A stretch of 64,000 nt of DNA from Thalassorhabdomicrobium marinisediminis. Its GTDB lineage: Bacteria; Pseudomonadota; Alphaproteobacteria; Rhodobacterales; Rhodobacteraceae. The stretch is from positions 186,001-250,000 of the forward strand of contig NZ_QCYG01000004.1 in NCBI RefSeq assembly GCF_003072065.1, in the 5' to 3' direction. Within the stretch, counting starts at the first letter, position 1. The number at the start of each line of letters is the position of its first letter. This document shows positions 34,964 through 57,118 of this stretch, in pieces. The position numbers were made by a program, and so were the translations under genes. A model generated the notes under the pieces. The model did not search any database, had not been told where the DNA came from, and saw only the letters and a program-made list of their open reading frames with translations.

Positions 34964-35218
34964 GTGGTATTTCCTCAAGTGACGTCCGGGACGCTCCAAC
35001 GTGGGTGTCATGTGACCTATTTTTGCGAAAATTCAAACCCGAACCATAAAGATCAGGTGAAATTGACCCCGTCCGGCTCTGCGCGCACTCCTCCTTGGGG
35101 GCCATGAGCTGCGATCGGCAAGACCTATCAGCCCGTGGCCGCGCGCAGGGACGTCGCACTTCACCATTTCTCACTTGCTAGCGAGGGGGCGTTTCAGCTA
35201 CGTAAACCCACGACCCGA

Positions 35219-35289
35219 TCTCGGGAGAACCAGTTCGCTGGTGCCGAAGGAGCAACCGCCTCGGAATCTCTCAGGCCACAGGACCGAGA
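35219..35289 (+). promoter_or_regulatory. glycine riboswitch, aptamer 1
   Basis: The first of two aptamers in the gcvT leader. P1 is TCTCGG pairing with CCGAGA. The conserved core shows GGTGCCGAAGGAGCAACCGCC, then GGAATCTCTCAGGC and AGGACCGAG. The 180 bases before it, back to the divergent RND adaptor gene, hold promoters I could not assign. Confidence 0.93.
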
Positions 35290-35304
35290 CCGGAATGACG
35301 ACAA

Positions 35305-35367
35305 CTCTGGAGAGTGGTGCCGCACGCACCCGCCGAAGGGATAACGATCTCAGGCGAAAGGACAGAG
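35305..35367 (+). promoter_or_regulatory. glycine riboswitch, aptamer 2
   Basis: The second aptamer, 15 bases after the first. P1 is CTCTG pairing with CAGAG, with conserved CCGCCGAAGGGATAACGATC, CTCAGGCGAAAGGACAGAG. The tandem arrangement is typical of switches that turn on glycine cleavage genes when glycine is abundant. Confidence 0.93.
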
Positions 35368-35369
35368 GA

Positions 35370-35410
35370 GGCACCAGCGCGCAGGAATGATCCTGCGTAG
35401 GACAGGTGCC
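35370..35410 (+). promoter_or_regulatory. expression-platform hairpin of the glycine riboswitch
   Basis: GGCACC pairs with GGTGCC around an inner CGCAGGA/TCCTGCG hairpin. It begins directly after aptamer 2 and lies about 50 bases before the gcvT start. There is no U-run, so control may act on translation or through a rival fold rather than by simple intrinsic termination. Confidence 0.5.
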
Positions 35411-44616: not shown

Positions 44617-44745
44617 CGCAGGCACCTTTCGTTTGCCGCGTTTATGCACGCACCTGCGGCGGATGCAACGGACCCTACGTCACGGTTGAATGGAATCAGG
44701 GATTGCAGGCAGGATTGTCGCAATCTCAGGGAGGAGACACGCAAC

Positions 44746-45129
44746 ATGAAGACATTTCTGGTCACGCTTGCCGCCATGGTCGGCTTTGCCTCGGCGGCTT
44801 TTGCCGACCCCATCGAGGGAACATGGCGCACCGAAACGGATGACGGATCCTATGCGCTGGTGAATATCGCACCCTGCGGTCCGGCCTATTGCGGGGTGAT
44901 CGCGCGGACGTTCAACGCCTCGGGCGAATACCAATCGGAAAACATCGGCCGGCAGATCGTCATCAACATGGTGCCGCAGGGTGGCGGTGCCTATGAGGGG
45001 CAGGTCTGGCGTCCGTCCAACAACAAGGTCTACCTTGGCAAGATGGACATCTCAGGCAACACCGCGCGGCTGCGTGGTTGTGTTGCCGGGGGGCTGTTCT
45101 GTGCCAGCCAGACCTGGACGCGCAATTAA
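44746..45129 (+). CDS. DUF2147 secreted protein
   Basis: A 127-residue protein with a standard signal peptide (MKTFLVTLAAMVGFASAAFA, cut before DPIEGTW) and a DUF2147 domain, a small lipocalin-like beta barrel of unknown function. The domain opening GTWRTETDDGSYALVNIAPCG and the ending GCVAGGLFCASQTWTRN fit the family; two Cys pairs may be disulfides. GGGAGGAG lies 12 bases before the ATG. It is on the opposite strand between hisH and hisA. Confidence 0.9.
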   Translation: MKTFLVTLAAMVGFASAAFADPIEGTWRTETDDGSYALVNIAPCGPAYCGVIARTFNASGEYQSENIGRQIVINMVPQGGGAYEGQVWRPSNNKVYLGKMDISGNTARLRGCVAGGLFCASQTWTRN

Positions 45130-56408: not shown

Positions 56409-56480
56409 CCGCGCATCCTATCGCCGGCAGGGGCGAAGGGAACAGATGGATCGGATCGGATCGGGGAAAGAGAGCGAAAA

Positions 56481-56518
56481 AAGCGACGGAACCAAGGGAG
56501 GAGGAAGTTCCGCCGCTT
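56481..56518 (-). ncRNA. cuckoo hairpin 7 (last) and operon terminator
   Basis: AAGCGACGGAAC pairs with GTTCCGCCGCTT (one mismatch); the loop reads TTCCTCCTCCCTTG on the minus strand. Six U residues follow (56476-56481), making it an intrinsic terminator. Confidence 0.85.
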
Positions 56519-56525
56519 CTTTGCT

Positions 56526-56557
56526 ACGGTCACCCCAGGGAGGAGGGGGTCTTCCGT
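56526..56557 (-). ncRNA. cuckoo hairpin 6
   Basis: ACGG/CCGT and ACCCC/GGGGT stems enclose a loop reading CTCCTCCCT on the minus strand. Confidence 0.75.
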
Positions 56558-56565
56558 GTCATCAA

Positions 56566-56591
56566 AACGGTCCAAGGGAGGAAGAACCGTT
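56566..56591 (-). ncRNA. cuckoo hairpin 5
   Basis: AACGGT pairs with ACCGTT; the loop reads TCTTCCTCCCTTGG on the minus strand and holds the full CTTCCTCCC motif. Confidence 0.8.
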
Positions 56592-56609
56592 CTGGTGGTA
56601 TCCAACACA

Positions 56610-56627
56610 CCCCGAGGGAGGACGGGG
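56610..56627 (-). ncRNA. cuckoo hairpin 4
   Basis: CCCCG pairs with CGGGG around TCCTCCCT (minus strand), the most compact unit. Confidence 0.75.
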
Positions 56628-56645
56628 CAGGCTGGTATTCTTTGG

Positions 56646-56690
56646 ATCGAGAGCGACGGTATCAGGGAGGAGATACCGCCGCGTCTCGAT
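56646..56690 (-). ncRNA. cuckoo hairpin 3
   Basis: ATCGAGA/TCTCGAT, GCG/CGC and CGGTATC/GATACCG form a long stem, with TCCTCCCT in the loop (minus strand). Confidence 0.8.
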
Positions 56691-56694
56691 CTGT

Positions 56695-56728
56695 GCGCCT
56701 TCCATCAAGGGGAGGAAATGGACGGCGC
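56695..56728 (-). ncRNA. cuckoo hairpin 2
   Basis: GCGCC/GGCGC and TCCAT/ATGGA stems, loop TTCCTCCCCTTG (minus strand), with an extra C in the motif. Confidence 0.7.
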
Positions 56729-56735
56729 GATCACA

Positions 56736-56766
56736 GGTCAGCCCAGGGAGGGAGGAGAGGGCGACC
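56736..56766 (-). ncRNA. cuckoo hairpin 1 (first on transcript)
   Basis: GGTC/GACC and GCCC/GGGC stems, loop TCTCCTCCCTCCCT (minus strand) with the motif doubled. It starts ten bases after the DUF1127 stop codon. Confidence 0.7.
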
Positions 56767-56775
56767 CGATGCGAA

Positions 56776-56988
56776 TTAGTTGTAGGTCGCTTCGAAAGCG
56801 ACGCGCTTGATGCTCGAGCGGCCAAAGCCCAGATCGTTAAGCTCGTGGTCGGACAGGTTGCTCAGCTCGGCCACGGTCTTGCGATAGGCGCGGTACTGCA
56901 TGAAGCGGGAGAACAGGCCGCCAGCGCGATCGGATGCGCGGTCAAGGATGGATGGGCCGCTTGTGCGGATGTCAGATGCGTGTGCCAT
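56776..56988 (-). CDS. DUF1127 small basic protein (CcaF1-like)
   Basis: This 70-residue protein ends with the DUF1127 domain: RAYRKTVAELSNLSDHELNDLGFGRSSIKRVA, an Arg-rich helix-turn-helix-like element. In R. sphaeroides the homologous CcaF1 is described as an RNA-binding protein that affects processing of the CcsR RNAs encoded after it. The same order is seen here: a DUF1127 gene, then CUUCCUCCC hairpins. TAGGAGGCC precedes the ATG, a strong ribosome site. The product is positively charged and cytosolic. Confidence 0.9.
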   Translation of the reverse strand: MAHASDIRTSGPSILDRASDRAGGLFSRFMQYRAYRKTVAELSNLSDHELNDLGFGRSSIKRVAFEATYN

Positions 56989-57007
56989 GATGGCCTCCTA
57001 GGTCATT

Positions 57008-57051: not shown

Positions 57052-57085
57052 TTCGAGGCCTCATTTAAGCCAATGCTGCATTTGC

Positions 57086-57118
57086 ACAATGGCCGAAAGG
57101 TCAGACCCGCTATGCAAG
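57086..57118 (-). promoter_or_regulatory. possible RpoH-type promoter of the DUF1127-cuckoo operon
   Basis: CTTGCAT (resembling CTTGAAA) and GGCCATTGT (resembling CCCATNT) are 17 bases apart on the minus strand. This is a loose match. In R. sphaeroides the ccaF1-CcsR operon is driven by RpoHI/RpoHII, which motivated the search. Confidence 0.3.

Follow-up and report, generated by a model that had tools for sequence, protein, structure and literature searches.

The locus lies on the minus strand of the window, the 64,000-nt stretch of the Thalassorhabdomicrobium marinisediminis genome analysed here. A short DUF1127 gene is followed there, directly and on the same strand, by a row of seven hairpins, with 5 nt between its stop codon and the first of them. 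In the order in which the minus strand is read, the features are:

57063..57089, minus strand: promoter-like element TTG-N19-TAAAT, which includes TTGTGCA-N3-GCAGCA at 57074-57089 and is conserved in the genus alignment
56994..56999, minus strand: Shine-Dalgarno sequence AGGAGG of the DUF1127 gene, 5-6 bp of which are complementary to the array loops
56776..56988, minus strand: DUF1127 (CcaF1-like) gene, 70 aa; PF06568 with E = 6.5e-12; relatives precede arrays family-wide
56730..56770, minus strand: hairpin 1, loop UCUCCUCCCUCCCU, starting 5 nt past the DUF1127 stop codon
56695..56728, minus strand: hairpin 2, loop UCCUCCCCUU
56645..56691, minus strand: hairpin 3, loop UCCUCCCU, 19-bp stem
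56602..56635, minus strand: hairpin 4, loop UCCUCCCU, between the two ar14-like triplets
56560..56597, minus strand: hairpin 5, loop UUCCUCCCUU
56532..56550, minus strand: hairpin 6, loop CUCCUCCCU, 5-bp stem, -6.0 kcal/mol
56473..56525, minus strand: hairpin 7, loop UCCUCCUCCCUU, long stem with six consecutive U at its end

The hairpins follow each other at gaps of 1, 3, 9, 4, 9 and 6 nt. The initial annotation had described seven of them between 56481 and 56766; the row is indeed present, with 7/7 CCUCC tracts in hairpin loops, but its true extent is slightly wider, from 56770 to 56473. In an unconstrained fold of a 335-nt stretch, each CCUCC tract fell inside a hairpin loop. Dinucleotide shuffling of a 330-nt stretch (200 shuffles) yielded a mean of 0.56 CCUCC-loop hairpins and a maximum of three, while 200 shuffles in which the pyrimidine tracts were held fixed gave a mean of 2.62 and a maximum of five. 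The summed hairpin energy of the array was -127.5 kcal/mol, whereas the tract-fixed shuffles never fell below -53.3 kcal/mol. When both strands of the window were divided into fixed 300-nt bins, every other bin contained at most two such hairpins. A stricter hairpin caller, the third that we used, found six hairpins in the window, losing hairpin 6, and the first, cruder caller also found six. Hairpin 7 is likely the intrinsic terminator of the array, a candidate role suggested by its stem and U run; a simple T-run test did not flag it because the U run lies mostly within the called stem.

Consistent with the initial description of unrelated stems around similar loops, the loop tract is the same in six of the seven hairpins, whereas the 10 nt beside the loop show a mean identity of 0.30 among the seven 5' arms and 0.34 among the 3' arms (best single pair, 7/10 and 8/10, respectively). 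Exact UCCUCCCU occurs in these six hairpins, which account for 6 of its 28 copies in the genome, and hairpin 2 carries UCCUCCCC. The same pattern is seen between related arrays of the genus, and the proposal that the loops are conserved while the stems turn over is borne out. In 12 array pairs, which partly overlap in membership, 679 of 794 aligned stem pairs were unchanged, 64 had changed with pairing kept (46 one-sided, 18 two-sided) and 51 were broken, with 84 further pairs meeting gaps; only 24 of 578 aligned loop positions differed.

A DUF1127 gene followed by a CcsR-like RNA forms an arrangement that has been named CIN1 (PMC10253847). The assignment of the locus to this class, made initially from gene order and loop motif, is upheld by the PF06568 match and by matches to the Rfam models ar14 and CcsR1. 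Cotranscription with the gene and cleavage into sRNAs by RNase E are further marks of this class. At gathering scores, Rfam returned no match in the array region. At a relaxed threshold, ar14 (RF02344) matched hairpins 5-7 (48.0 bits, E = 1.4e-7) and hairpins 1-3 (39.7 bits, E = 9.8e-6), both end to end, and CcsR1 (RF02791) matched hairpins 6-7 (27.9 bits, E = 1.3e-4), all E-values being computed on 851 nt. In this comparison with covariance models, as suggested initially, two ar14 matches and one CcsR1 match are significant, but all lie below the gathering scores of 58.8 bits (ar14) and 65.3 bits (CcsR1), and for this reason the array is not filed under either family. Another seven-hairpin array of the genus, L036, scored 57.9 and 52.3 bits with ar14, just under the gathering score. 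In a scan of 19 family loci at gathering scores, only four (L007, L008, L033 and L102) reach ar14 or CcsR1, so the Rfam models miss most such arrays. The array is a real, well-formed and ordinary CIN1-type anti-Shine-Dalgarno locus, and it belongs to a kind, a DUF1127 gene with anti-Shine-Dalgarno hairpins, that is widespread in alphaproteobacteria. A three-motif pattern search of species genomes found at least 120 stretches; the 80 matches listed were mostly from Rhizobiales and Rhodobacterales, and three actinobacterial or myxobacterial records among them may be chance.

The view that seven hairpins exceed the four known in R. sphaeroides is not supported, because the four are RNAs with two hairpins each; the Rfam CcsR1 model consists of two hairpins, and the R. 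sphaeroides RNA RS0680a is reported to have two stem-loops (PMC3927594). We surveyed 100 genomes of the family, one per genus and our own included, 86 of which have a DUF1127 relative. An array was defined as at least two CCUCC-loop hairpins behind a DUF1127 gene, with at most 130 nt before the first hairpin and between neighbours. Arrays were carried by 76 of these 86 genomes and comprised 2 to 19 hairpins (median 6), with 33 above seven. Seven as a record number is ruled out by this survey, and the window array stands near the family median. Array counts differ by a few hairpins among the three callers: the third gave 34 of 76 genomes above seven, a maximum of 17 and a median of 6, the first gave a maximum of 16, and the second undercounts L033 (6 or 8 against 14 hairpins) and L101 (2, or 9 under a wider gap limit). 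Within the genus of the window, a DUF1127 gene was found in 17 of 19 genomes, our own included, and all 17 bear arrays of 3 to 8 hairpins.

In the family genome L033, the CcsR1 model scores 106.2 bits and matches seven times, covering 14 hairpins, behind a DUF1127 gene. Five of these seven matches (L033:741-1491, minus strand) are near-identical repeats of about 114 nt, which look like a recent tandem amplification. In several genomes, other DUF1127 genes (L053, L055, L082, L085, L088 and L091) have 2-4 CCUCC-loop hairpins some way downstream; these short sets may represent another type of DUF1127/anti-Shine-Dalgarno pair. A literature search with limited access to the most relevant papers yielded no study recognisable as a survey of array sizes or loop targets in the family, and we claim no priority.

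Spacing sets the genus apart from the rest of the family, to a degree that depends on the caller. With the second caller, 54% of even-numbered but only 10% of odd-numbered gaps were at least 20 nt long in the family outside the genus, a short/long alternation expected from two-hairpin units with linkers, whereas in the genus the figure was 3% for both. Arrays without any gap of at least 20 nt made up 14 of 16 in the genus (at least four hairpins each, window included) and 12 of 65 in the remaining family. The contrast was weaker under the third caller: 5 of 15 arrays of the genus and 10 of 64 outside it lacked any core-to-core spacing of 50 or more, the window failing this test because hairpin 6 is lost. 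The alternation was nevertheless confined to the family outside the genus with this caller too (spacings of 50 or more at 115/205 even and 21/250 odd positions, against 2/27 and 9/35 in the genus without the window). Paired-hairpin spacing is thus missing in the genus, in a contrast that depends on the hairpin caller and weakens under the stricter one. Loop length varies as well, from 6 to 18 nt round a fixed core in family arrays, 18 nt being the caller's limit. The loops contain CCUCCUCC in 430 of 539 cases in the rest of the family (109 lack it), in 43 of 85 in the genus without the window and in 1 of 7 in the window; most window loops are shortened, and this contrast again leans on the hairpin caller.

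Upstream of the DUF1127 gene, the genus alignment keeps TTGTGCA-N3-GCAGCA together with a -10-like CCTATTT or CTTAAAT, giving TTG-N19-TAAAT or TTG-N19-TATTT. Promoters of RpoHI and RpoHII are described as having TTG at -35 and TAT at -12 (PMC10673084; also PMC3441632), and the element resembles and is compatible with a putative promoter of this type. TTGTGCA-N3-GCAGCA has one further exact copy in the genome, at L447. The ORF near that copy reads like an acyl-CoA dehydrogenase; the copy lends no support to the idea that the motif is a PhaR or phasin operator, which was dropped.

The initial annotation had suggested a search for AGGGAGG-type targets, and the loop complement proved to be concentrated at ribosome-binding sites. 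The pattern GGGAGGA-N3-11-ATG occurs at 36 places in the genome, and the reversed pattern at 3. Outside the array, UCCUCCCU has 22 copies, 13 of which are antisense to such sites (complement AGGGAGGA). Behind the 36 sites lie 23 ORFs of at least 100 aa, eight of which encode solute-binding proteins; among the genes with a AGGGAGGA site the share is 7 of 11, the other four encoding pyruvate dehydrogenase E1-alpha, an acetyl-CoA synthetase-type enzyme, a catalase and a DUF2147 protein. At control sites, also canonical but a poorer fit to the loops, solute-binding proteins numbered 1/19 (AAGGAGA) and 1/21 (AAGGAGG) against the 8/23 (Fisher p = 0.003), the controls being the matches listed, 30 of 104 and 30 of 65 places, respectively, with some proteins scanned singly. 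In eight relatives, they were found at 8 of 21 AGGGAGGA sites and at 0 of 26 TAAGGAGA sites (p = 0.0006), again among the matches listed (30 of 182 and 30 of 142 places). The relatives' eight comprise three DctP, three NMT1_3 and two proteins of ABC-type families, and two of the NMT1_3 proteins are near-identical and come from two genus members. For pdhA, GGGAGG was present in 12 of 27 readable family loci, our own included, compared with GGGAG in 7 of 277 long ORFs; the pdhA loci are the best 30 of 56 genomes with a match, and one of the 27 readable starts is probably misread. Predicted loop duplexes averaged -15.3 kcal/mol at GGGAGGA sites and -7.6 and -10.1 kcal/mol at the controls, differences that follow from the choice of site pattern. 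A direct CcsR target reported elsewhere is flhR. The solute-binding-protein and pdhA sites agree with reports that the predicted targets of the ar14 RNA NfeR1 are mostly ABC transport systems (PMC10746234) and that CcsR RNAs affect the PDH complex (PMC8307010).

The DUF2147 gene lies in the window itself (44728-45129, plus strand), and its ribosome site, CTCAGGGAGGAGA, is complementary to the array loops. A similar site precedes DUF2147 genes in four genus relatives (L371, L373, L374 and L378), all found by the pattern itself. The window also contains a tandem glycine riboswitch at 35212-35375 (plus strand), with two RF00504 aptamers of 60.4 and 47.7 bits. Elsewhere in the genome, at L443:1547-1620 (G000:C29:174180-174302, plus strand), a pair of hairpins whose loops are CCCUCCCU and UCCUCCC stands directly behind a Phasin_2 gene (PF09361, 4.6e-6). 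A U run follows the second hairpin, and the pair matches ar14 at 27.7 bits (E = 0.004). By sequence, it may be another unit of this type, made of two hairpins and carried by an unrelated mRNA.

Taken together, we consider that the array is probably a stress-induced 3' UTR RNA of the DUF1127 mRNA whose loops block AGGGAGGA-type sites, a reading to which we give a probability of about 0.7. Its observed basis is the order of the features, the predicted hairpins, the conserved loops with their changing stems, the complementarity and the enrichment of candidate targets; from these we infer transcription, stress control, processing and pairing in the cell. In the proposed mechanism, the CcaF1-like mRNA would carry in its 3' untranslated region seven anti-Shine-Dalgarno hairpins of the CcsR/cuckoo/ar14 kind, cotranscribed with the gene, probably from an RpoH-type stress promoter, and ending at hairpin 7. 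Rigid, freely varying stems would keep the UCCUCC(U)CCC loops open, and each loop would pair with a AGGGAGGA-type ribosome-binding site and block translation. Such pairing is the likeliest of the loop actions suggested at the outset. The likeliest targets would be the mRNAs of uptake solute-binding proteins, of pyruvate dehydrogenase E1-alpha and of the acetyl-CoA synthetase-type enzyme, and the array would probably damp translation of nutrient-uptake and central-metabolism genes, leading under stress to less nutrient uptake and less carbon flow. The multiple loops would provide dose and multivalency rather than separate specificities. Against this reading, any CCUCC loop is expected to complement strong ribosome sites, the solute-binding-protein enrichment could stem from another anti-Shine-Dalgarno sRNA (AbcR-type) or from expression needs, and a stress-protective RNA would be a poor match for a target such as catalase.

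Many identical loops would also suit titration, and the array might act as a decoy whose loops mainly bind Hfq, the DUF1127 protein or a ribosomal protein recognising the 3' end of the 16S rRNA, with mRNA pairing secondary. CcsR RNAs have been reported to interact with Hfq (PMC8307010), and CcaF1 is described as an RNA-binding protein cotranscribed with the CcsR RNAs and acting on them (PMC10253847). The 6-18-nt range of loop size round the fixed core is, however, looser than expected of a protein-bound loop, and the loop complement is concentrated at the ribosome sites of genes that form a coherent set, which also speaks against a decoy; we regard this reading as unlikely. That the hairpins are a mere 3'-end stabiliser or terminator cluster, the loop motif being a terminator sequence habit, is highly improbable. 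Hairpin 7 does resemble an intrinsic terminator, and the set behind the phasin gene provides a second genome terminator with such loops; but terminators do not need such loops, and the array has 7/7 tracts in loops, with the motif kept against stem turnover across genera.

The array and its terminator might instead act in cis, setting the stability and translation of the DUF1127 mRNA, with autorepression through pairing of the loops with its AGGAGG. Autorepression is possible in the window, because among 87 array-bearing DUF1127 genes this one alone has GGAGG as its ribosome site. The predicted duplexes of the array loops with this site reach -8.5 to -9.6 kcal/mol, stronger than at all but one of the 86 other DUF1127 sites but far weaker than at the GGGAGGA sites acting in trans. 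None of those 86 has GGAGG, and across the 87 loci (at least three hairpins each; 17 from one genus, plus some second loci per genome, and so not independent) GGAG is rarer, at 2/87, than in array-less DUF1127 genes (9/40, p = 0.0005) or long ORFs (31/277, p = 0.009). Strong self-pairing therefore looks avoided as a rule, although GAGG runs in the opposite direction (25/87 array-bearing against 7/40 array-less genes). Avoidance of GGAGG itself was considered and is not significant (1/87 against 14/277 long ORFs, p = 0.13). We find a primarily cis-acting device quite unlikely. A further proposal, which we hold only tentatively and doubt, sees the array as a single multivalent RNA that stays uncut, with one hairpin joining two ar14-like triplets, and that would grip several ribosome-binding sites at once. 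The genus would have lost the spacing between two-hairpin units by which CcsR RNAs can be separated through cleavage; in this species, the array would also repress its own DUF1127 partner through the newly gained AGGAGG.

Returning to the preferred reading, translational block in trans by a stress-induced 3' UTR RNA, the family offers material to test it. Within this one family, CIN1 arrays vary widely in hairpin number (2-19), spacing and loop length while the loop core stays constant, and this variation is a natural dose and valency series for testing action by pairing. The enrichment of AGGGAGGA sites on solute-binding-protein genes in the genome and in eight relatives constitutes a concrete, testable target list.

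In the cuckoo RNA family, reportedly described by Reinkensmeier and Giegerich in 2015, each RNA has 2-4 hairpins, whereas the window array has seven in one run, most with shortened loops. Cuckoo RNAs are characterised as adjacent hairpins, two to four in number, with a conserved loop motif and helices lacking sequence conservation (PMC4504443, PMC3927594). The window array likewise consists of adjacent hairpins with variable stems and an anti-Shine-Dalgarno core in every loop; the full CCUCCUCCC is wholly unpaired in hairpin 7 only, its first C is paired in hairpin 6, and the remaining five hairpins have UCCUCC(C). Like ccaF1-CcsR1-4 of R. sphaeroides, the locus comprises a putative RpoH-like promoter element, a DUF1127 gene (70 aa here, 71 there), CCUCC-loop hairpins and a likely end terminator. 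Unlike that system, its loops are mostly UCCUCCC(U) instead of CCUCCUCCC, its hairpins are packed at gaps of 1-9 nt without long linkers between two-hairpin units, and the CcsR1 model gives 27.9 bits against the gathering score of 65.3. The rhizobial ar14/NfeR1 sRNA, by comparison, has three hairpins with an anti-Shine-Dalgarno loop each, and hairpins 1-3 and 5-7 of the window each match the model over its full length; uptake systems are the candidate targets of both. NfeR1 acts in trans and is expressed from a promoter of its own, as reported in PMC10746234, whereas the window array consists of two such triplets and one further hairpin behind a DUF1127 gene.
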